From positions 1 to 34,150 of the forward strand of contig SOHS01000160.1 of assembly GCA_004377135.1 (NCBI GenBank): DNA of 34,150 nt, given 5' to 3'. The position numbers and the translations under genes are program-made. Below, piece after piece: positions 5,595 through 21,303 of this stretch (positions are counted from its first letter, which is position 1; the number at the start of each line of letters is the position of its first letter). The stretch comes from Dehalococcoidia bacterium (GTDB lineage: Bacteria; Chloroflexota; Dehalococcoidia; GIF9; AB-539-J10). The notes below the pieces were generated by a model. That model ran no database searches. It worked only from the letters and a program-made list of their open reading frames with translations, and was not told the DNA's origin.

Positions 5595-5600
5595 TATAAT
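5595..5600 (+). promoter_or_regulatory. Possible -10 box (TATAAT) of the original tRNA-Ser promoter, now upstream of the tRNA half
   Basis: TATAAT 15 nt upstream of the tRNA-Ser 5' half; no clear -35 seen. Confidence 0.4.
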
Positions 5601-5615
5601 TGGCTATGCAATCAA

Positions 5616-5654
5616 GGAGAGGTGACCGAGTGGTTTATGGTGCCGCTCTCGAAA
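5616..5654 (+). repeat. Truncated tRNA-Ser(CGA) 5' half, putative left attachment site
   Basis: ggagaggtgaccgagtggtttatggtgccgctctcgaaa, 39/39 identical to 11477..11515; no 3' half follows. Confidence 0.88.
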
Positions 5655-5772
5655 TTTGTCAGCAGTTGTCACGAACGGTCACTTTACGTTCAAATTAGAA
5701 CTTTTGTGTCAATCACCCGAAACCCGTTTTGTTCGTAAAATACCAACTGGTAACAACCAGTTTCACTATGTC

Positions 5773-5794
5773 TATTAGCAAATTATTAGCAAAA
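5773..5794 (+). repeat. 22-bp direct repeat, left copy (subterminal in island)
   Basis: tattagcaaattattagcaaaa, identical to 11416..11437. Confidence 0.8.
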
Positions 5795-6155
5795 TTCTAG
5801 CTTTGGTTTATGCGTGAGACAATGACAACAAGGGACTAACAACATACCATAGCAATAAAAACAGCAACGTGGATAACAACTATATATCTAACTAGACGTG
5901 ATATGGAATTTTCAGCTAGGGATTGATGTAGTGTTGAGATGTCTGTGGACAGTGAAGTTTGAGGACGGCTTGAGGCTGTATTGTAGGATTGAACAATCCG
6001 CTATTTTGCCACGCCAGAGTCAACAAGACAGGCGTTCGCGTGATTTCATCCTCACGTGTACTCTGGCAGAAAGGACGTCGCATATCTGACCCCGAATCAT
6101 ATTTGCCCGTTTATGTGTTTAATCGGAGTTCAGAAGCAGATATTTGTGCGGGTGC

Positions 6156-7121
6156 TCACATTCTAGTGAAAGTCCGTTTGCCTTTGAGATGCCGATATAT
6201 TTTATTGAAATCCATGGTATACTCGAGGTCGTCAACTTCTATTTTTCTCTGACCTTTGATATCGATATTATGTATAATTAATAGCTCTTCATTGAAATGA
6301 GATGCTTGTACAATATTAATACCGGACGGTGCCCATAGGCCCGAGCCTCCCCAAAACTTAGTCCCACTAATTGTGTGAACGCCGACAGAATTACATGCAA
6401 TAGTCCAGACTTGATTCGTTGCAGAACGCGACGATAAAAGCATATCCCAGAGCATCCCATAGTATGTGTCAGTATGAATATTCATCGTCGGATATTCCCT
6501 CGTACCTGTTCCCTTCCAAGATGCGACCTGCACAACTGCGTCAATTTGGTCAATCTTAGAGTATTCCTGTAACAATTGTGAAAAGCAATAATCATAACAG
6601 GTCGTAAATCCAAATCTTCCCCATTTCGTGTCTATCACGAGTCTATCATCTAGACCCGATCTGGTATAGATCTTTTCTATTCCTGGTAGCATGATTTTGT
6701 CGTAGATATAATCTTCTTTCATATAATCAACGGTTCTATTCAAGATATAGGTAGAATTGAGATATTTCCTGTGATGGCCACTAGAGCCCTTCCTAATATT
6801 ATTGAAGACAATGTAGTTAAGGTCATCATCAAGCATTGGGAAAAGCATATCTGTAATCCAGTCATGGTGCCTTTCAATTACAGCTGAATTCATATAGTCC
6901 CTGCATTCCTGTTGGTTCTCCCAGAAATAACCGGACAAACAAAACTCAGGGAAAACGACCATATTAACTTTCTTTTCTTTGAAAACCGCCATCGTCTCAA
7001 GGATCTTCCTTTTGTTTCTTTCTATTCCAGGAACTACCGCATGAATATTCGCTATTCCAATGGATAGAGAGTTTTCGCCCGGGGCAAATGCTCGCTCTCT
7101 GATACTAATACTACTACTCAT
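6156..7121 (-). CDS. Carbon-nitrogen hydrolase (nitrilase superfamily)
   Basis: Glu in MVVFPEFCLSGYF, Lys in IYDKIMLPG, Cys in GFTTCYDYCFSQLL: apparent E-K-C triad. Confidence 0.8.
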   Translation of the reverse strand: MSSSISIRERAFAPGENSLSIGIANIHAVVPGIERNKRKILETMAVFKEKKVNMVVFPEFCLSGYFWENQQECRDYMNSAVIERHHDWITDMLFPMLDDDLNYIVFNNIRKGSSGHHRKYLNSTYILNRTVDYMKEDYIYDKIMLPGIEKIYTRSGLDDRLVIDTKWGRFGFTTCYDYCFSQLLQEYSKIDQIDAVVQVASWKGTGTREYPTMNIHTDTYYGMLWDMLLSSRSATNQVWTIACNSVGVHTISGTKFWGGSGLWAPSGINIVQASHFNEELLIIHNIDIKGQRKIEVDDLEYTMDFNKIYRHLKGKRTFTRM

Positions 7122-7274
7122 GATATTACCTCTATACCGCAGGTCTCATATTGTAGGCTAATCCTCTCAAAAGTACAAAGCCCTCCCTGTAAATAATCAA
7201 AATCTTATTCTTCATTCAAACACAATGGCTTATCGCAAGGGTATCGATTGGATCCAATATAGAGAATTATAGGA

Positions 7275-7463
7275 TTAGTGATGCTGGGATATAGTAATGG
7301 TGACAGTGTCCCCAGGCTTAACCACAGCTGGACTTACAATTAGGTTGGCTACTACAAATCCAGCCGGGCTATTGGTCAAAACCATGATGCCTATGATGAT
7401 GAAAAGCCCCACAAGCCAAGCTAACCCACCAATTAGCAACTTCTTTTTCACCGCCTTGTTCAT
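7275..7463 (-). CDS. Small membrane-anchored protein with a truncated CARDB-like stretch
   Basis: N-terminal TM segment followed by NLIVSPAVVKPGDTVTITI, resembling the first strand of CARDB-like domains. Confidence 0.4.
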   Translation of the reverse strand: MNKAVKKKLLIGGLAWLVGLFIIIGIMVLTNSPAGFVVANLIVSPAVVKPGDTVTITISQHH

Positions 7464-7826
7464 AATAGAATCATAATCTGACTAGACTTCAAATAGGTTA
7501 CCATCGTGTGATATTAAACGGGTTAGTAGAGGTCGATGGAGGTCGTTTTGATGGAGATTAAGCAGGCTCGGTCTCCCTCTCAAATATGATTAAACGTTAC
7601 GGATTTACTTCAGGACACTCTTCTTGTTGGCAGGGTTAAACCTATCTTATAACTTAGTAGATTGATTATAATTTTTATCTATACAAGATGTTGATTAGGT
7701 CCGAACGAAATTATCAGAGAATAAGTTTAAAATATTTTAAAATAAAGCGTTTTTACGTTATTGTATAATCATCAAACATTTGGCACCGAACGCGACTAAT
7801 AAATAGATTAGGAGACATATATAAAA

Positions 7827-8834
7827 ATGGAAAATAAGAACCCGAAGAAGATGCGTACAATCACTCTTGAAGAGCATTATGCAACCCCGGCTTTCATGGA
7901 AGCCTCAAAACACCGTCTGAGGGACCAGGCGAAAAAGTTATCAGACCGAGGTCCGGGACCAACGCTCATTGATAGACTATGTGATCTTGGTGATTTAAGG
8001 ATCGAAGAGATGGATGCCGCAGGTATTGATATGCAGGTTTTGTCGCTAACTTCTCCAGGTGTCCAGCAGATGGAGGCGGCTGAAGCAGTGGTGATCGCCC
8101 ATGAACAAAATGATTATCTGGCAGATCGTGTGAAGTATTATCCAGAACGGTTCGTGGGATTTGCAGCTTTGCCGACTCCAGTTCCAGACCAAGCGGCCGA
8201 GGAGTTAGAACGTACAGTAAGTAAATATGGTTTCAAAGGGGCAGCCATCATGGGTCACACCCGGGGGCGCTACCTGGATGATGAATTCTTCAGGCCAATC
8301 CTAGAAAGTGCCTCCGTGCTCAAAGTTCCGATCTATATTCATCCAACACCACCTCCCCAAAAGGTCATCGAGGCCTCTTATACTGGAAATTATACGCCAA
8401 ACGTGGCAGTATTGTTATCGACCATGGCCTGGGGCTGGCATATTGAAACTGCAATACACTCCCTGCGTCTTGTCGCCAGCGGAGCATTTGACCGTTATCC
8501 AGATCTACAGATTTTGATTGGACATCTGGGTGAAGCTATTCCGTTCATGCTTTCGAGAATTGATCAAAAATTATCCAGGGAACAGACGCATCTGGAACGA
8601 TCTGCTGGAGCCTATTTCCGCGAGAACTTCTCTTACACCTTCAGTGGTTTCAATTATCTCCCAGCTTTTCTCGACCTACTACTTCAGGTCGGAGTCGACC
8701 GGATCCTATTCTCCGCGGATTATCCTTATGCGTCGATGGAGTCAGCGCGAAATTTCTTGGACCAACTCCCAGTGAGCCCTGCCGACAAAGAGCAAATCGC
8801 CCATGGTAATGCTGCGCGCCTTCTGCAGATTTAA
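7827..8834 (+). CDS. Amidohydrolase 2 family, gamma-resorcylate/dihydroxybenzoate decarboxylase-like
   Basis: TITLEEHYATP N-terminal metal motif, IYIHPTPPP, QILIGHLGEAIPFMLSRID, RILFSADYPYAS. Confidence 0.83.
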   Translation: MENKNPKKMRTITLEEHYATPAFMEASKHRLRDQAKKLSDRGPGPTLIDRLCDLGDLRIEEMDAAGIDMQVLSLTSPGVQQMEAAEAVVIAHEQNDYLADRVKYYPERFVGFAALPTPVPDQAAEELERTVSKYGFKGAAIMGHTRGRYLDDEFFRPILESASVLKVPIYIHPTPPPQKVIEASYTGNYTPNVAVLLSTMAWGWHIETAIHSLRLVASGAFDRYPDLQILIGHLGEAIPFMLSRIDQKLSREQTHLERSAGAYFRENFSYTFSGFNYLPAFLDLLLQVGVDRILFSADYPYASMESARNFLDQLPVSPADKEQIAHGNAARLLQI

Positions 8835-8933
8835 ATCAGATAGCTCATAAACTCTGTAAAATGGATAATTAGATAACATCTGTTGAGTTAATCGGACAAT
8901 AAGGTCATACGTACTTATTCATATTTGCAAATG

Positions 8934-10739
8934 TTATTTGTTGATGCCGAGTTTGTCCAGAAGTGAATTATCAGGATTACCGGTTGATAAGTCCCAACCC
9001 AAAGCGCGGTAGTAATCATCCTTCAGCTTCTCCAGGGGAACCACTTCTCCTTTGGTTGGGCCGTCGGGCTTGGGTTCATTTAATAATCTTCCTGGCAGCG
9101 TGTCGTCTTCTCGTGTAATGCCTTCACGCATATTGAATAGCCGTTCCCGACATATAATTCTCATACCTGCTTCTTTCAGATCATCAAATGCCCAAGCTTC
9201 TCCAAATAAGGATGAGACATTCTTATCTACGGAGCCAAATACCTGCCGCCCAAATACACAGCATGGAATGGAATCTGCGATCATCTGGCCAATAGCCATA
9301 TTCTTTACCTGCTCCCCTTTGCCTTCTAATTGCAGTCTTGTTCCATCATGGATTTCCACTCTAGCCACCACTCCGTAACCATGATGGCATCCTCCCCGAT
9401 TGTTAATCGCAAATTGTAGGGCTTGGCCGTTGGCACCCCGGCACTCATAGCCACCAAGCTCCAGACCTTTAGCCTGTATGGCAAATGACTCAGACCCTTT
9501 AATTTCTTGTGATGCTCTTCTCACCCCTTCTGATAGCAGCAAGCCGAACCCCTCTTGACTCACTATTTTCTTCAGCATCGCAATCATCGCTTTATCGTCG
9601 CCAAACCGAAGCTCAATGCCATCGGTGTCTGTTGTCCCTATAAGCCCCTTTTCAAAGCATTCCATGGCAAAGCCAATACTTGATCCGGCTGACATGGTGT
9701 CAATACCATTTTCATCACATATCTGGTTCGCAGCAATAATAGCATCCAGTTTGTCAACCCCACAACTCGGGCCAAAGGCATAAATTGTCTCGTACTCAGG
9801 GCCATCACAGTGTGCGCCCTGATAAGGCCCTTTTTCGACCTCCATATATAGAGAACAAGGTGTAGGACAAAAGGGACCACAAGGCTTGTTCTGCCAGGTC
9901 CACTCTTTCTCATGAGAGGGGAAGCTCAGCCTCTCGGCACCTTCAAATGTTCCTCCTTGCCAGTTTCGTGTAGGCAGCAGCCCCAGCTTATTTAGTGTAT
10001 CAACGCTCATGCGTGTACCGTAGCGGCGCCACAAAGTTGCCCATTGTTCGTTTTCCTTTACTCTACTCAAGATATCCTTTCTTATCTTTTCAAATCCGTC
10101 CCTGTCACCAACTTCTATCTTTCCATCTCCATAGATCACTATCCCCTTAAGCTTTTTAGACCCCATAACACAGCCTGAACCCCCTCTGCCAAAAGCACGA
10201 TAGACAGGACCATCAACCATGATAGCCGCGTATCTAAGCAACCTTTCTCCGGCCGGACCAATTGCCATTGTGGCTGCCTTCCTTGCCGATAAGCCTCCCA
10301 GCATTACTCGCTGTGCTTCACCGGATTCCATACCCCACAAAGGGGTGGCGTCCTTGAACTCAACCTTCTGGTTATTTATCTCAAGATAAGTCGGAGAATC
10401 AGCAATGCCGGCAACGTCAATGGCCCATAAACCAGCCTTTCTCATTTGATGTCCAATCGTGCCGCTGGACATTGCATATAAATAGATGCCAGTCAGTGGC
10501 GACTTGGTATTAATAACTGTCTTGGAAGAATAGGACAAATTTGTACCGTTTGATGGGCCAGCAGTAAATATAAGGTGATTCTTCTCACCTAAAGGGTCAA
10601 TCCGCGGGGGTACTGAGTTGTATAAAAGATAGGCTCCCAGACCTCTACCCCCTATATACTGGTTAATTATCCTATCTGGGATCTCTTCGACTCGGTAAGA
10701 CCTGTTCGACAGGTCTATCCTCAGTATCTGGTTTGCCAT
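8934..10739 (-). CDS. Tungsten-containing aldehyde:ferredoxin oxidoreductase
   Basis: Start at internal Met MANQILRIDLSNRSYRVEEIP; YIGGRGLGAYLLY, GPEYETIYAFGPSCG, Cys-rich CGPFCPTPC; ORF track start extends upstream to 10793. Confidence 0.92.
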   Translation of the reverse strand: MANQILRIDLSNRSYRVEEIPDRIINQYIGGRGLGAYLLYNSVPPRIDPLGEKNHLIFTAGPSNGTNLSYSSKTVINTKSPLTGIYLYAMSSGTIGHQMRKAGLWAIDVAGIADSPTYLEINNQKVEFKDATPLWGMESGEAQRVMLGGLSARKAATMAIGPAGERLLRYAAIMVDGPVYRAFGRGGSGCVMGSKKLKGIVIYGDGKIEVGDRDGFEKIRKDILSRVKENEQWATLWRRYGTRMSVDTLNKLGLLPTRNWQGGTFEGAERLSFPSHEKEWTWQNKPCGPFCPTPCSLYMEVEKGPYQGAHCDGPEYETIYAFGPSCGVDKLDAIIAANQICDENGIDTMSAGSSIGFAMECFEKGLIGTTDTDGIELRFGDDKAMIAMLKKIVSQEGFGLLLSEGVRRASQEIKGSESFAIQAKGLELGGYECRGANGQALQFAINNRGGCHHGYGVVARVEIHDGTRLQLEGKGEQVKNMAIGQMIADSIPCCVFGRQVFGSVDKNVSSLFGEAWAFDDLKEAGMRIICRERLFNMREGITREDDTLPGRLLNEPKPDGPTKGEVVPLEKLKDDYYRALGWDLSTGNPDNSLLDKLGINK

Positions 10740-11056
10740 ACATTTGCTCCTTTCGTCATCAAGCGTCTCGTTGAACTTGGCTATCCAGGGCATGATTTCC
10801 TATTTTGAGTCAAGGTAGTCAACGGCCTCGAAGCAGGCGCGTGATGCCTTCACTCACCAGGTACATATAAATGCAATCACTAATCTCCTGGTCTCTGACA
10901 GAATGGCTTATGAAAACATCATGACTCGCGAATCTATAAATACCATAGTGCGGACACAAAGTCAAAGAACAGGGACTTTAATATAGGAGAGAAGCGACAC
11001 CAGGGACACTTTTTTAGCCTCTGGATGCTACTTGCCTCTTTGAATCTTCCCTGTGA

Positions 11057-11443
11057 AGAACCGCGGGTCAAGATAAATTAGGAATACTACTAAAAGACGA
11101 TGATTTGATATTCAGCACACTGGAAGGCAAGCCATTGCGCCATAACACGGTAAGCAGAGCGTGGATTATGCTGGCCGCTCGTGCTGGCCTAAAGGTTATC
11201 AGGCTTCACGATGCAAGGCATACCCATGCTAGTTTAATGCTCAAGCAAGGAGTACACCCCAAAATAGTGCAGGAGCGGCTAGGTCATGCTTCAATAAAAA
11301 TAATCTCGCTACATATTCCCATGTAGCACCCGGCCTTCAAGAAGCCGCTGCGGAGAGTTTTGCTAAACTGGTGTCGCCAAAGTATAATGGGGAAGCCGAA
11401 CCTGTTCAAGAGCATTATTAGCAAATTATTAGCAAAAATGCTT
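11057..11443 (+). pseudogene. Tyrosine recombinase (integrase) C-terminal catalytic domain, N-truncated and frameshifted
   Basis: LLKDDDLIFSTLEGKPLRHNTVSRAWIMLAARAGLKVIRLHDARHTHASLMLKQGVHPKIVQERLGHASIKI then +1 frame TYSHVAPGLQEAAAESFAKL. Confidence 0.85.
11416..11437 (+). repeat. 22-bp direct repeat, right copy (subterminal in island)
   Basis: tattagcaaattattagcaaaa, identical to 5773..5794. Confidence 0.8.
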
Positions 11444-11476
11444 TATGTAAGGGCTTGGCGGCAAAAATTAGCTTTG

Positions 11477-11561
11477 GGAGAGGTGACCGAGTGGTTTATG
11501 GTGCCGCTCTCGAAAAGCGGTGGGCAGAAATGCCTCGTGGGTTCGAATCCCACCCTCTCCG
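11477..11561 (+). tRNA. tRNA-Ser(CGA)
   Basis: ggagagg...cctctcc acceptor, anticodon loop CTCGAAA, long variable arm, T-arm gtgggttcgaatcccac. Confidence 0.95.
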
Positions 11562-11562
11562 C

Positions 11563-11651
<89 letters not shown>

Positions 11652-14962: not shown

Positions 14963-17671
14963 ATGAAGGAGGATATTGGTTTGCAGCCGATAACCATTAC
15001 TCTTGATGGTCGTGAGGTAAGTGGCTATCCGGGGACGACCATCCTAGAACTGGCGAAGGAATCAGGTATAGATATCCCCACACTCTGTCATGCCCCTCAA
15101 CTAACTTCGGTTGGGGCTTGCCGTGTCTGTCTGGTAGAAGACGAACGAAATAGTACCTTATTGGCGTCTTGTGTTACACCGATAGCATCAGGGATGGTAA
15201 TCAACACGCATTCCCCGCGAGTTATAGAGCGCCGCAAGACCATAGTTAAGCTGATGCTTGCCAGCCATCCTGATTCTTGCTTGGTATGCGATAAAGGCAA
15301 TCGCTGCCAGCTACGCCAAATTGCCTCGGACCTGGGCATCGGATTGGTAGAGCTTCAAAGAATTCCCCAGATGGCTAGCATTGAGGAGGTCAACCCCTTC
15401 CTTGAACGGGATTTGAGCAAGTGCATATTGTGTGCCAAATGTATTCGCGCCTGCCAGGAACTAGTCGTTGAGGGTGCTATTGACTACTTTCAACGAGGAT
15501 TTACGACCATACCGGCGACACTGAACAATTTGCCGCTGGAAAATTCCGAGTGCACTTTCTGTGGAACTTGTGTGGCCCTGTGCCCTACAGGCGCGCTAAC
15601 TGAAAAGGAGAAAATATATAGAGGAACAACCCAGACTGTTGTCCAGACAACCTGTCCCTTCTGTGGCTGTGGCTGTAGCATTTGCCTGGAAGTCAAGGAT
15701 GGACATGTAGCGCGGATCACGCCGGGCAAGGAAAGATCGGTGCACAAAGGCACGCTATGTGTGAGGGGAAGCTATGGCTGTGATTTTATCCACAGCCCGG
15801 ATAGGTTGCTCAAACCCTTGGTCAAGAGTAATGGTAATTTTGAGGAACTGTCCTGGGAAGAAGCTTTAGAACTGGTAGGCACTCAATTCCAGCGAATAAA
15901 GGATGAATCTGGCTGTGACAGCCTAGCCATCCTGGGTTCCTCTAAGTGCACTAACGAAGAGAATTACCTTTTGCAGAGATTCGCCAGATCCGTGCTGGGC
16001 ACCAACAATATTGATAATGGCGGTCGCTTGTATAACTCTGCCAGCTGTGTCGGCCTGGGATCTTCACTTGGCTTCCCCGGTACTACAAACTATCTTAGCG
16101 GTCTGGAACAATCAGAGCTTATATTAGTTATTGGGGCCGATCCCAGTTCCTCAGCACCTGCCGTCGGTTATGCCATAAAGCGTGCTGTCAAAAGGCAAGG
16201 TGCCAAGTTACTGTTGATAGACCCTCGACAGACAAAGCTCCTTATGTTTGCCCATCTTTGGGTGCAACCCGAGGTTGGCACTGATGTGGCTCTTATAAAT
16301 GGCCTGGCCAAGGTGATTATCGACGAAGGCTTGCTGGACGAGGAATTCGTCGCCAGAAGTACGGATAACTTTGAAGCTTTTAACGAAGGCTTGAAAAAAT
16401 ATACCCTGGAGTATGTTGAGGAGACTACTGGTGTTTCAGGTCAACAAATTCGTGCTGCTGCTCGACTATACGCCAGGGCAAGCCGGGCAGCAATTGTCTA
16501 TGGCACAGGAATCACGCAGCATGTGACAGGAACTGACAGTGTGAAGGCTCTGGCAAACTTGGCGTTGCTGACGGGCAATATTGGGCATAAGAGAGGCGGC
16601 GTCTACGCGCTGCAAAGAGAAAACAATGGGCAAGGCGCCTGCGACATGGGAACATTACCCATATTCCTCCCCGGATATCAGAGTGTAGTGGACGCCCAGG
16701 CTAGGAGGAAGTTCGAAGAAAGTTGGGGAGTAAGCTCGCCGGCTGAGCCTGGGCTAACAGCCTTGGAAATCATGAAGCAAGCAAAAAAAGAAAAGATTAA
16801 GGGCATGTACATCGTAGGAGAAAATCCTGCCTTGAGCTTTCCAAATTCGAGACTCATTATTGAGATTCTAGCCTCCATCGATTTCCTGGTAGTCCAGGAC
16901 ATGTTCCTTACGGAAACGGCTAAACTGGCAAACGTGGTTTTACCTGCGGCAAGCTTCGCCGAAAAGGACGGGACATTCACCAACTTCGAGGGGAGGGTAC
17001 AAAGGGTGCAAAAGGCAATCCCTCCTCTGGGCGAAAGTTTGCCAGACTGGGAGATAATCCTGCGACTGGCTGACAAAATCGGGGCTCCGATGCCATATTC
17101 CTCTCCCCAACAAGTTATGGACGAAATAGTTGACACTTGTCAGCTAGCAACCTATAGCTCATATGAAGGGAATGGCCATACAGAGCCAGAGGCGCAGAGC
17201 CTGTATCAGGCTGAGTCGAGTAGCCATTGGGGAGTCGGGCGCATACATGGGGGGCAGTTCCCGAAAGGGTTTGCCCGCTTTTGCCCGGTTGCGTATGTTC
17301 CACCGACAAAGGCGAAGAAGGGCTATCCCTTTACCTTGCTAACCGGGGGTATCCCTAATCATTTCGGCACTGGCTCTAGAAGCTCCAGGTCTACGCGATT
17401 GAAGAAATTCTCCCCGGAGGCTTTTGTGGAAATTTGTGAGTCTGACGCCAGAAAACTTGCCATCACTGTGGGTGAGAAGGTCAAGGTCATCTCACCTGTA
17501 GGCGAGGTGACTACAATAGCCAAGATTACCGATACACTACGTCAGGGGATGCTTTTTATGCCAGTTTCATACCCAGAGACTCCGGTTAATGAGCTATTCG
17601 ACATTGTCTTAAATTCCGAAACAAAAGCGCCTTCACTGAAAGCATGCAGCGTAAAAATAGAGAAATTGTAA
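14963..17671 (+). CDS. NuoG/formate-dehydrogenase-alpha-like molybdopterin oxidoreductase with N-terminal [2Fe-2S] and [4Fe-4S] domains
   Basis: Ferredoxin N-term CHAPQLTSVGACRVCLVE, 2x[4Fe-4S] CILCAKCIRAC/CTFCGTCVALC, MGD domain CPFCGCGCSICLEV, NGQGACDMG. Confidence 0.88.
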   Translation: MKEDIGLQPITITLDGREVSGYPGTTILELAKESGIDIPTLCHAPQLTSVGACRVCLVEDERNSTLLASCVTPIASGMVINTHSPRVIERRKTIVKLMLASHPDSCLVCDKGNRCQLRQIASDLGIGLVELQRIPQMASIEEVNPFLERDLSKCILCAKCIRACQELVVEGAIDYFQRGFTTIPATLNNLPLENSECTFCGTCVALCPTGALTEKEKIYRGTTQTVVQTTCPFCGCGCSICLEVKDGHVARITPGKERSVHKGTLCVRGSYGCDFIHSPDRLLKPLVKSNGNFEELSWEEALELVGTQFQRIKDESGCDSLAILGSSKCTNEENYLLQRFARSVLGTNNIDNGGRLYNSASCVGLGSSLGFPGTTNYLSGLEQSELILVIGADPSSSAPAVGYAIKRAVKRQGAKLLLIDPRQTKLLMFAHLWVQPEVGTDVALINGLAKVIIDEGLLDEEFVARSTDNFEAFNEGLKKYTLEYVEETTGVSGQQIRAAARLYARASRAAIVYGTGITQHVTGTDSVKALANLALLTGNIGHKRGGVYALQRENNGQGACDMGTLPIFLPGYQSVVDAQARRKFEESWGVSSPAEPGLTALEIMKQAKKEKIKGMYIVGENPALSFPNSRLIIEILASIDFLVVQDMFLTETAKLANVVLPAASFAEKDGTFTNFEGRVQRVQKAIPPLGESLPDWEIILRLADKIGAPMPYSSPQQVMDEIVDTCQLATYSSYEGNGHTEPEAQSLYQAESSSHWGVGRIHGGQFPKGFARFCPVAYVPPTKAKKGYPFTLLTGGIPNHFGTGSRSSRSTRLKKFSPEAFVEICESDARKLAITVGEKVKVISPVGEVTTIAKITDTLRQGMLFMPVSYPETPVNELFDIVLNSETKAPSLKACSVKIEKL

Positions 17672-17677
17672 CACCTC

Positions 17678-17710
17678 GGCTTGTCTTCGACAAAAGGATG
17701 GGGACAAGCC
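17678..17710 (+). other. Intergenic inverted repeat with two competing pairings
   Basis: ggcttgtc(17678-17685)/gacaagcc(17703-17710); ttgtc also pairs with gacaa at 17689-17693. Confidence 0.4.
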
Positions 17711-17750
17711 CCCGTGCTACTTAATATAAGAATAGAAAGGGTGAGGCTTC

Positions 17751-18242
17751 ATGAATAAAGCGAAGACCATCACAAAGGCTGACCTGGCACGAATTAATAT
17801 CATCATTTCTGAATATAGTAGTCAGCAGAAGTGGGCAATGATACCGCTGCTGCAAAAAATCCAAAGTGAGTTCGGGTTTATCCCTCCTCAGTCTGTACCA
17901 TTTATAGCCAGAAGCTTGGGGGTTTTCCCCAGTCAGGTACAAGGGGTGATTAGTTTTTATACCCAGCTCTACACTCAGCCACGAGGCAAAAAAATTGTCA
18001 GAGTTTGTCGAGGGACAGCTTGCCATGTGCGGGGAGGAAAGACGATACTGAAATTGGTTAAGCAGCACCTGGATATAGAAGAGGGCGAGACTACCCCTGA
18101 TTTTGAATACACACTGGAAACCGTAGCCTGTATCGGCGTCTGTGCCCTAGCGCCTAATATGGTCGTTAGTGACCATGTCCACGGTCATATGAACCCCAAA
18201 AAAGTGGAGCAACTGTTTAAGCATCAAGAGGGTGAAAAGTAA
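17751..18242 (+). CDS. nuoE: NuoE-like NADH dehydrogenase 24 kDa subunit ([2Fe-2S] thioredoxin-like)
   Basis: PQSVPFIARSLGVFPSQVQGVISFYTQ, CRGTACHVRGG, TVACIGVCALAPNMVV. Confidence 0.93.
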   Translation: MNKAKTITKADLARINIIISEYSSQQKWAMIPLLQKIQSEFGFIPPQSVPFIARSLGVFPSQVQGVISFYTQLYTQPRGKKIVRVCRGTACHVRGGKTILKLVKQHLDIEEGETTPDFEYTLETVACIGVCALAPNMVVSDHVHGHMNPKKVEQLFKHQEGEK

Positions 18243-18243
18243 T

Positions 18244-21200
18244 ATGGAAAGCCATTGCACCATTTTTATTTGTCAGGGAACAGGATGCCTCTCCAGCAGC
18301 TCTGAAGCTGTCTATGATGCGCTTAAAGAAGAAATAAAACGGCAAAGGATAAGCTATGCCGAGGTGGATTTCACTGGTTGTCACGGCTTTTGCGAGCAGG
18401 GTCCTAATGTAGTCATTGAACCTGAAGGTATTTTCTATACCCATGTCCAGGCCGAGGATGCTCCAGAAATTGTCACTTCTCATCTTCGAGATGGCAAGCC
18501 TGTGGAACGCCTTTTCTACCATGATCCGGTAACTGGCGAAGCCATACCACGCTATTCAGAGATAAACTTCTACAAAAAGCAGCAGCGTGTCATTCTGCGA
18601 AATTGCGGGCAAATCAACCCGGAAAAAATTGAGCATTACATTGATCGTGGAGGTTATCAGGCGTTGAGAAAGGCTCTTCTAATAACTTCCGAGCAGGTTA
18701 TTGAGGAGATTAAGAAATCTGGCCTTCGCGGGCGAGGTGGCGCTGGTTTTCCCACCGGCCTCAAGTGGGAGTTTTGCCGTAATGCTCCCGGAGAAAAGAA
18801 ATACGTCATCTGCAATGCCGATGAAGGCGACCCCGGTGCTTTTATGGACCGCTCCATCCTGGAAGCAGATCCCCACGCTGTCGTTGAGGGGCTGACCATT
18901 GCTGGATATGCCATGGGTGCCAATGAGGGCTACATCTATGTCCGTGCTGAGTATCCCTTAGCAGTAAAGCGAGTTCACACTGCCTTAGAGCAAGCCCGAC
19001 AAAGGGGCTTTTTGGGTAAAGATATTCTCGGCTCAGGCTTTGATTTTGTGGTGCACATCAAAGAAGGCGCCGGGGCCTTTGTTTGTGGCGAGGAAACAGC
19101 TCTAATGGCTTCCATTGAGAGCCGACGGGGCATGCCTCGTCCCCGCCCCCCATTTCCCGCCCAATCAGGTCTGGAAGGAAAGCCTACTACTATCAATAAT
19201 GTAAAGAGTCTGGCTTCCATTCCCGTTATCATTGATCGAGGGGCTGATTGGTTCGCCGGCATAGGTACCGAAAAGAGCAAAGGGACGGCTGTCTTTGCCC
19301 TCACGGGGAAGATTGCCAACAGTGGGTTGGTGGAGGTACCTATGGGCACTCCCCTATCCACCATTATTTTTGATGTCGGGGGTGGTATCCCCCGGAGCAA
19401 GCAGTTTAAGGCGGTGCAGACGGGTGGTCCTTCAGGTGGCTGTATTCCTGCCCGGTTTCTCGATTCCCCCGTGGAATATGAAACACTGGCTCAATTAGGT
19501 TCGATTATGGGCTCTGGCGGTATGGTGGTGCTGGACGAGACCACCTGTATGGTAGAGATAGCCAGGTATTTCTTGAGCTTCACTCAATCTGAGTCCTGTG
19601 GGAAGTGTGTCCCTTGCCGCCTGGGAACCAGACAAATGCTAGAAATACTGACCAGAATCACTCAGGGCAAAGGACGTGAAGAGGATATGGATACTCTGCT
19701 TACCATAGCCAAGACAGTTAAGGAATGCTCGCTCTGTGGTCTGGGACAGACCTGTCCCAACCCCGTGCTCACCACCATTGAGTACTTCAGAGATGAATAT
19801 GAAACCCACATACAAGAAAAGAAATGCCCGGCTGCTGTCTGCGATGCCCTCATGATATCACCGTGTCAGCATACCTGTCCTGTAGGAATCAATGTTCCCA
19901 AATATGTGGCTCAAATTGCTGACTGTGAGTACCTGGAGGCTGTCAACACCATCAGGGAGCGTAATCCCTTCCCCGCTATTTGCGGCCGCATCTGCCATCA
20001 TCCCTGCGAGGGGAGATGCCGCCGCGGGGAACTCGACGACTCTGTAGCTATCAGGGCGCTTAAGCGCTTTGCCGCCGACTGGTATTTTGACCACATTGGG
20101 GAATTACCTGAACCAGAACCCTTTCCCCTGACTCACAGCCAAAAAGTAGCAGTAGTAGGAGCGGGACCTACAGGGCTGTCCTGCGCCTACTTTCTGGCTC
20201 AGATGGGCTATCCTGTCACGGTCTTCGAAGCCCTCCCCCTAGGCGGGGGCATGCTCTCGGTAGCTATACCTGACTTCCGCTTGCCGCGGGAGGTTATTGA
20301 AAAGGAGATAGATTATATCGCCAAGCGGGGAGTGGAGATAAAATACGACACGCCAATCAATGTAAATTTCACCATAGAAGATATCAAAGATAGTGGCTTT
20401 GAAGCTGTCTTTATTGCCGCTGGGGCTCAAAAGAGCCAGATTATTGGTATACCCGGAGAATTGGAGGACATTGAGGGCTTCTACTATGGTTTGAGATTTC
20501 TCAGAGATGTGAAGTTTGGTAAGTCTATTAAGATTGGACGCAGGGTAGCTGTTATCGGGGGTGGTAATGTAGCCCTTGACTCTTCGCGCACAGCTCTTCG
20601 CCTTGGTGCCGATGAGGTGAGTATCTTTTACCGTCGGTCGCGGGAAGAGATGCCGGTAACTGAGGTGGAGTATGATGAGACTCTGGCTGAAGGCGTCCAG
20701 GTTAATTTCCTCGTCAGCCCCACCCGCCTGGCAAGCGATGACTGGAAAGTGACCGGTTTACAGTGTGTCCACATGAAGCTGGGTGAGCCTGATGCCGGTG
20801 GACGCCGTCGCCCAATTCCTGTTCCTGGCTCAGAGTTTTTTGCTCCAGCGGATACCGTCATTGCTGCTGTGGGGCAGGCTCCAGACCTGTCGTTTTTACC
20901 CCCGGATAGTGCTCTTGAGCGTACTCGGTGGGAAACGCTGGCGGTTGATGAAAACAAATTAGCTACTAATGTTTCCGGGGTCTTTGCTGGGGGGGATTTT
21001 GTCTCCGGGCCGGGCATGGTTATAGAAGCTATTGCAGCTGGCCGGAGAGGGGCCATCGCCATAGACAAATATCTCCAGGGCGATACCTCACGGGTCGAGA
21101 TGTACGACCTGAAGCCCAGCGTCATTGAAGAAGAAGTAATTAGAGAGGAAGAAGAAAGCTGGGAACCACAATTCAGGCCGGAAACACCCCATCTCCCTCT

Positions 21201-21303
21201 CCAGGAGAGGAAAGGTAGCTTTAAAGAGATAGAACTGAGCCTTTCTGAGGAGAAGGCGAGACAGGAGGCTAAGCGTTGCTTAAGATGCGACTTGGAAAAG
21301 TAA
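18244..21303 (+). CDS. NuoF-like NADH-binding flavoprotein fused to GltD-like FAD/NAD(P) oxidoreductase
   Basis: GLRGRGGAGFPTGLKWEF, CNADEGDPGAFMDR, SCGKCVPCRLGTRQ (NuoF) then CPVGINVPKYVAQI, VVGAGPTGLSCAYFLAQMG, VIGGGNVALDSSRTALRLGA (GltD-like). Confidence 0.92.
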   Translation: MESHCTIFICQGTGCLSSSSEAVYDALKEEIKRQRISYAEVDFTGCHGFCEQGPNVVIEPEGIFYTHVQAEDAPEIVTSHLRDGKPVERLFYHDPVTGEAIPRYSEINFYKKQQRVILRNCGQINPEKIEHYIDRGGYQALRKALLITSEQVIEEIKKSGLRGRGGAGFPTGLKWEFCRNAPGEKKYVICNADEGDPGAFMDRSILEADPHAVVEGLTIAGYAMGANEGYIYVRAEYPLAVKRVHTALEQARQRGFLGKDILGSGFDFVVHIKEGAGAFVCGEETALMASIESRRGMPRPRPPFPAQSGLEGKPTTINNVKSLASIPVIIDRGADWFAGIGTEKSKGTAVFALTGKIANSGLVEVPMGTPLSTIIFDVGGGIPRSKQFKAVQTGGPSGGCIPARFLDSPVEYETLAQLGSIMGSGGMVVLDETTCMVEIARYFLSFTQSESCGKCVPCRLGTRQMLEILTRITQGKGREEDMDTLLTIAKTVKECSLCGLGQTCPNPVLTTIEYFRDEYETHIQEKKCPAAVCDALMISPCQHTCPVGINVPKYVAQIADCEYLEAVNTIRERNPFPAICGRICHHPCEGRCRRGELDDSVAIRALKRFAADWYFDHIGELPEPEPFPLTHSQKVAVVGAGPTGLSCAYFLAQMGYPVTVFEALPLGGGMLSVAIPDFRLPREVIEKEIDYIAKRGVEIKYDTPINVNFTIEDIKDSGFEAVFIAAGAQKSQIIGIPGELEDIEGFYYGLRFLRDVKFGKSIKIGRRVAVIGGGNVALDSSRTALRLGADEVSIFYRRSREEMPVTEVEYDETLAEGVQVNFLVSPTRLASDDWKVTGLQCVHMKLGEPDAGGRRRPIPVPGSEFFAPADTVIAAVGQAPDLSFLPPDSALERTRWETLAVDENKLATNVSGVFAGGDFVSGPGMVIEAIAAGRRGAIAIDKYLQGDTSRVEMYDLKPSVIEEEVIREEEESWEPQFRPETPHLPLQERKGSFKEIELSLSEEKARQEAKRCLRCDLEK

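Follow-up and report, generated by a model that had tools for sequence, protein, structure and literature searches.

Islander tRNA islands (PMC4383910) carry a tyrosine integrase and have a core repeat in a tRNA gene, with a regenerated tRNA and a displaced tRNA fragment. The displaced fragment is a 5' one in 159 of 3919 islands (~4%), and a bacterial tRNA that an element splits almost always retains its own promoter (PMC8371274). The window analyzed here is the whole stretch of 34,150 nucleotides from contig SOHS01000160.1 of a Dehalococcoidia bacterium. It contains a ~5.9-kb block that is very probably an integrated element of this general type, closest to the anticodon-centred islands, inserted in tRNA-Ser(CGA) and belonging to a widespread family. 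In contrast to the Islander collection, this family displaces the 5' half at 23 of the 32 left ends that have a recognizable tRNA fragment.

Elements that displace the 5' half have been described by Zhao and Williams 2002 (via PMC6563490) and for archaeal pTN3-like integrases (PMC8371274). Such elements also supply a 5' half and split the tRNA from its promoter. What differs in the window family is a separate promoter-like site within the 3' end of the integrase coding sequence. The Dehalococcoides tRNA/ssrA islands (McMurdie et al. 2009, PMC2764846) come from the same bacterial class and, like the window element, combine an integrase, tRNA/tmRNA repeats, and metabolic genes. Compared by description only, they differ in their 3'-end repeats and reductive dehalogenase cargo. 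Tn916-like and Gram-positive phage integrases (PF14657/PF14659/PF00589) share the domain order of P0001, an intact homologue of the window integrase, and full-length identity to phage and plasmid integrases is ~30-35%. Unlike Tn916-like elements and phages, neither the window element nor the others examined carry a phage structural or conjugation gene.

An occupied tRNA-Ser(CGA) gene

The window corresponds to contig C42 of a 179-contig metagenome assembly (1.24 Mb, 89.65% complete). It was compared with 84 genomes of the order, and tRNAs were called using ARAGORN and Rfam. A preliminary description of the window had proposed a small integrative element bounded by an exact 39-bp direct repeat of the tRNA-Ser(CGA) 5' half. 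A repeat search recovered both copies, at 5616-5654 and 11477-11515. Each ends in CTCGAAA, the whole 7-nt anticodon loop, so that the last base of the repeat is the last base of the loop. A 39-mer repeated exactly is far more than chance would produce; apart from it, the longest exact direct repeats of this 10-kb region measure 27 bp (T arms of the two Ser tRNAs) and 22 bp (an arm repeat, described below, that belongs to the element). Only the right copy is part of a complete tRNA, as had been proposed. Neither a further match to the tRNA-Ser(CGA) half nor a second copy of tRNA-Ser(GGA) was found in the assembly.

The preliminary description had suggested a search for an empty site, and such a site is found in ten related genomes. 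There, an exchanger gene is directly followed by tRNA-Ser(CGA). In nine of these loci tRNA-Ser(GGA) comes next, and the right-flank histidine kinase comes after wherever the locus reaches far enough. When the window flanks are joined with one core copy, they align gap-free to G017 (92.5% over 319 bp) and to G012 (94.5% over 275 bp). Other DNA lies between the exchanger and the tRNA in G016 and G014. The same tRNA-Ser(CGA) is occupied in G051, a member of another genus, by a 6.7-kb element (L251) that encodes an intact 387-aa integrase and shares the 39-bp core and arm repeats of the window. The empty site and this second occupant both support a small integrative element. As in Islander islands, a displaced fragment and a regenerated tRNA stand at the two ends. 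The arrangement is the reversed, 5'-displacing one, in which the left copy is the fragment, the right copy is whole, and the native promoter is left behind. An intron interrupting the tRNA was rejected because the right end holds a whole tRNA and relatives show the empty site.

Two features of the ends were absent from the preliminary description: an exact 22-bp repeat, TATTAGCAAATTATTAGCAAAA, inside both cores (5773-5794 and 11416-11437), and a left end that recurs at other tRNAs. Each end of a related element likewise has a pair of short repeats set 11 bp apart, and the repeat sequence varies by element (TTAGCAA, AACGTCAA, AACGCCA, TTAGCT). Left and right repeats match better within than between elements (0.84 vs 0.65; permutation p=7e-5 for nine elements, with kinship ignored). 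These pairs are presumed to function as integrase arm sites.

The integrase remnant reported just inside the right end is confirmed by a Phage_integrase match (E=3e-13), and its frameshift lies ahead of the catalytic Tyr. Intact P0001 is composed of arm-binding, SAM-like, and catalytic domains. The tyrosine integrase typical of Islander islands is present in the window as a broken remnant only and is intact in the related elements L251 and L059. The window copy is a decayed relic, and the element is now dead. The claim that its cargo lacks phage and conjugation genes also held: none of the three intact cargo open reading frames of at least 80 aa encodes a relaxase (Pfam), and the element contains no phage structural, packaging, or replication genes. 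No relaxase or conjugation gene is among the Pfam matches of the related elements scanned. Two relatives have primase/helicase-like genes, and it is therefore possible that an ancestor replicated.

Base composition barely sets the island apart. Of the two comparisons suggested in the preliminary description, guanine-cytosine content shows a slight difference (0.440 vs 0.483), and tetranucleotide usage is within the normal range, with 15 of 74 control windows deviating more. Composition was set aside as a weak sign of foreign origin.

A promoter-like site in the integrase 3' end

More noteworthy than the cargo is how a 5'-displacing element keeps the host tRNAs expressed. In most of the empty-site relatives examined, the native TATAAT is 14-15 nt before the intact tRNA-Ser(CGA). 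Since the tRNA 5' half is displaced in the window, two single-copy Ser tRNAs are cut off from this promoter. The 3' end of the integrase remnant contains the promoter-like site TTGCTA-17-TATAAT, which reads toward the tRNAs. It matches 10 of 12 consensus bases, is 88 bp from the reconstituted tRNA, and is equaled by none of 200 shuffles. The site holds the same place in intact 5'-displacing relatives.

Across the family, 13/15 5'-displacing elements have TATAAT within the 170 bp preceding the tRNA, compared with 0/12 3'-displacing elements. Replication on later-fetched loci gave 17/27 vs 0/7 (p=0.004). Three locations of the box are observed: +69 relative to the catalytic Tyr codon, where it is formed by Tyr-Asn codons; +8, in the FTMDVYSHIIEGM group; and ~10 bp before the tRNA. 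In the FTMDVYSHIIEGM group, 16 of 17 genes use the box codons CAT and ATA, which account for 42% and 39% of choices elsewhere in those genes. The Ser codon preceding the box takes six forms, and the single gene that departs from this codon use has lost the two hexamers. Binomial values for this codon choice overstate significance because the genes are related. On the integrase tree, orientation has switched at least seven or eight times, and TATAAT never occurs against orientation.

On sequence grounds the case for an embedded promoter is good, and the distribution of the box gives a modest preference to the view that the integrase 3' end carries a replacement promoter now driving the Ser tRNAs. 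It is slightly favored that this coding end, under DNA-level selection, doubles as a sigma-70-type promoter that re-expresses the tRNA cut off from its own promoter. Several points weigh against both proposals. The comparison of 13/15 with 0/12 is post hoc, because the 170-bp region was chosen after a narrower test failed. In the 70 bp directly before the tRNA, 5'-displacing right ends are no better than 3'-displacing ones (p=0.115); a promoter immediately ahead of the tRNA, also poor in the window, was thus dropped, and only the wider region gave a signal. Ten of the 27 later-fetched 5'-displacing elements are without an exact TATAAT. Only six supported independent pairs are available, and their sign test gives p of 0.06-0.125 with kinship partly controlled. 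For the element itself, both junctions are known from assembled sequence.

A serious competing explanation, given a little under an even chance, accepts the island and treats TATAAT as a by-product of protein sequence or common ancestry. Transcription of the Ser tRNAs would then enter from upstream by read-through or begin at a non-consensus promoter in the right end. The nonsignificant sign test and the 5'-displacing elements without the box agree with this explanation, as do L073 and L045, where a good promoter instead sits immediately ahead of the tRNA. Against it, the box is missing from every 3'-displacing element examined, and its location differs among integrase groups, with three in all. 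Codon choice keeps the box while the adjoining Ser codon varies, and the window remnant retains it despite a broken reading frame.

Other alternatives concern the block itself. An element still mobile through an integrase encoded elsewhere is improbable. The two cores and the two arm pairs remain intact, and a helper integrase could be missing from the assembly given its incompleteness, but only two other phage-integrase matches are present in the genome. One is XerC/D-like, judged by its size and its lack of close similarity to the element family, and the other is a stop-containing remnant. It is very unlikely that the 39-bp repeat arose during assembly, through the joining of unrelated contigs. 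Repeats may mislead assemblers in a metagenome assembly of this many contigs, yet both flanks match a single contiguous locus in relatives, the family-specific ends are correctly placed on both sides, and G051 has a parallel element at the same site. Least credible of all is that the genes of 5.7-11.5 kb are ancestral and were lost by relatives. Though loss is common in small genomes, gap-free empty sites are found in several genera, and the element-type left end and the integrase end sit exactly inside the cores. The cargo is also patchy: the amidohydrolase is found in one other genome of the 84 and, at the limit used, has no match elsewhere in the order; an aldehyde:ferredoxin oxidoreductase (AOR) of >41% identity is found in two only, the remaining AORs of the order being at most 41% identical.

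For an integrated element with an embedded promoter, the following course of events is proposed. A tyrosine integrase would have inserted a small element at the anticodon loop of tRNA-Ser(CGA), with the anticodon stem-loop as core and the paired 11-bp-spaced arm sites used at both ends. On recombination, the native 5' half and its promoter would have stayed on the left, and a complete tRNA would have been restored on the right with a 5' half contributed by the element. Loss of the genes of the element itself would have followed, so that metabolic cargo is what now separates the left end from the integrase 3' end. The promoter-like site there would now most likely drive tRNA-Ser(CGA) and tRNA-Ser(GGA). 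An integrase-embedded tRNA promoter is put forward as a new point, and an earlier description in bacteria may exist.

Cargo and related elements

Table 1. Features of the element and its flanks (window positions)
Feature	Position	Strand	Remarks
-10 box (TATAAT) of native tRNA-Ser promoter	5595..5600	+	now upstream of displaced 5' half only
Left core, displaced native 5' half of tRNA-Ser(CGA)	5616..5654	+	exact 39-bp repeat; relatives run on into whole tRNA
Conserved left end of element family	5655..5799	+	model R1, 1e-30 in own genome; matches in 46/84 genomes
Left repeat pair (11-bp spacing), presumed integrase arm site	5773..5794	+	identical to 11416-11437
Nitrilase-superfamily (CN_hydrolase) protein, 321 aa	6156..7121	-	PF00795 E=1e-19
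Cargo cassette	7507..10965		other contexts in G010 and partly G001, by nucleotide identity
Amidohydrolase, Amidohydro_2 decarboxylase-like, 335 aa	7827..8834	+	PF04909 E=6e-42
AOR, 619 aa as listed	8934..10793	-	PF02730 and PF01314; similarity starts at residue 22
Integrase remnant, frameshifted	11078..11374	+	residues 282-380 of 393-aa homologue P0001; tblastn in two frames
Promoter-like site TTGCTA-17-TATAAT	11360..11388	+	inside integrase 3' end, reads toward tRNAs
Right repeat pair (11-bp spacing), presumed integrase arm site	11416..11437	+	identical to 5773-5794
Reconstituted tRNA-Ser(CGA)	11477..11562	+	first 39 bases are element-borne right core
tRNA-Ser(GGA)	11563..11651	+	directly 3' of tRNA-Ser(CGA); sole copy in assembly

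The preliminary description had listed a nitrilase, a LigW-like amidohydrolase/decarboxylase, and a tungsten AOR as cargo, and these identities stand at family level (CN_hydrolase, Amidohydro_2, and AFOR_N/AFOR_C). Its reading is refined in three respects: the window copy is a relic, the cargo is composed of at least two modules, and the unusual trait of the element is the displaced tRNA 5' half, hence the displaced promoter. Strand alternates across the three cargo genes. The nearest solved structure to the amidohydrolase is 3nur, followed by gamma-resorcylate and 5-carboxyvanillate decarboxylases. The AOR has structural matches to 9g7j and 1aor and contains both AFOR domains over its full length. 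No cargo protein, including the nitrilase-superfamily member, has an NCBIfam equivalog above cut-off, and no cargo substrate is therefore claimed.

The amidohydrolase-AOR segment is also found in G010 (L197), with 94% nucleotide identity over 7507-10893, beside a tRNA-Met-like sequence. A partial segment in G001 (L198) has 89% identity over 9077-10965 and is ~0.4 kb from tRNA-Gly(TCC). These tRNA contexts were read directly from the sequence. Outside the island, window positions 14963-21303 encode a formate dehydrogenase alpha subunit (TIGR01591 above cut-off), which adjoins a 1023-aa protein fusing NuoF-like and glutamate-synthase-small-subunit-like parts.

Model R1, built on ~140 bp inside the left core, has up to ~9 matches per genome, some of them opposite-strand or partial. 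Fifty left ends were inspected, a nonrandom sample gathered through similarity to the window element. A 5' tRNA fragment, nearly always ending at the anticodon loop, adjoins 23 of them, and a 3' fragment adjoins nine. The other 18 have no recognizable tRNA fragment beside them (e.g., L010 8094, L062 12897, L057 7547). Several of these end in an anticodon-loop-like string, such as CTCTTAA or CTTCTAA, and are possibly secondary sites or products of later rearrangement.

Family targets include tRNAs for Ser, Arg, Thr, Met, Lys, Trp, Gly, Pro, and Glu. Among the genes carried by related elements are those for a phosphate transporter, for secreted proteins, and for restriction-modification with AIPR, as well as a glycine-cleavage operon. 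L048 (G016:C83) is a 15.3-kb element in tRNA-Arg(TCT) with an intact integrase and a defence cargo of a DNA methylase, a BanI-like restriction enzyme, and an AIPR protein. A tRNA-flanked element in the window's own genome (L008, C59, 1-9413) is 98.8% identical over 9.4 kb to one in another species (L061, G004:C25, 2687-12099). It carries a glycine riboswitch, gcvT, gcvH, gcvPA, gcvPB, lpd, lipB, and lipA; its left core is a tRNA-Lys(CTT) 5' half, and its right end is an intact tRNA-Met. The tRNA-Ser flanks of the two species are ~81% identical, and the near-identity of the element reflects either recent transfer or one contig mis-binned twice. In L053 (4082-6665), two left ends lie 2.6 kb apart behind identical tRNA-Met 5' halves and form a tandem element array. 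In the 3'-displacing elements L085, L086, L087, L088, and L124, the integrase frame crosses the tRNA gene on the opposite strand, and the last residues are tRNA-encoded.

Implications for Dehalococcoidia

Small elements without conjugation genes carry AOR, decarboxylase-like, and even whole glycine-cleavage genes in uncultured Dehalococcoidia. If the embedded promoter is real, it would make 5'-displacing integration tolerable for the host. It would also favor keeping exactly the integrase tail after the rest of an element decays, as in the window, and would predict which elements can use which tRNA orientation.

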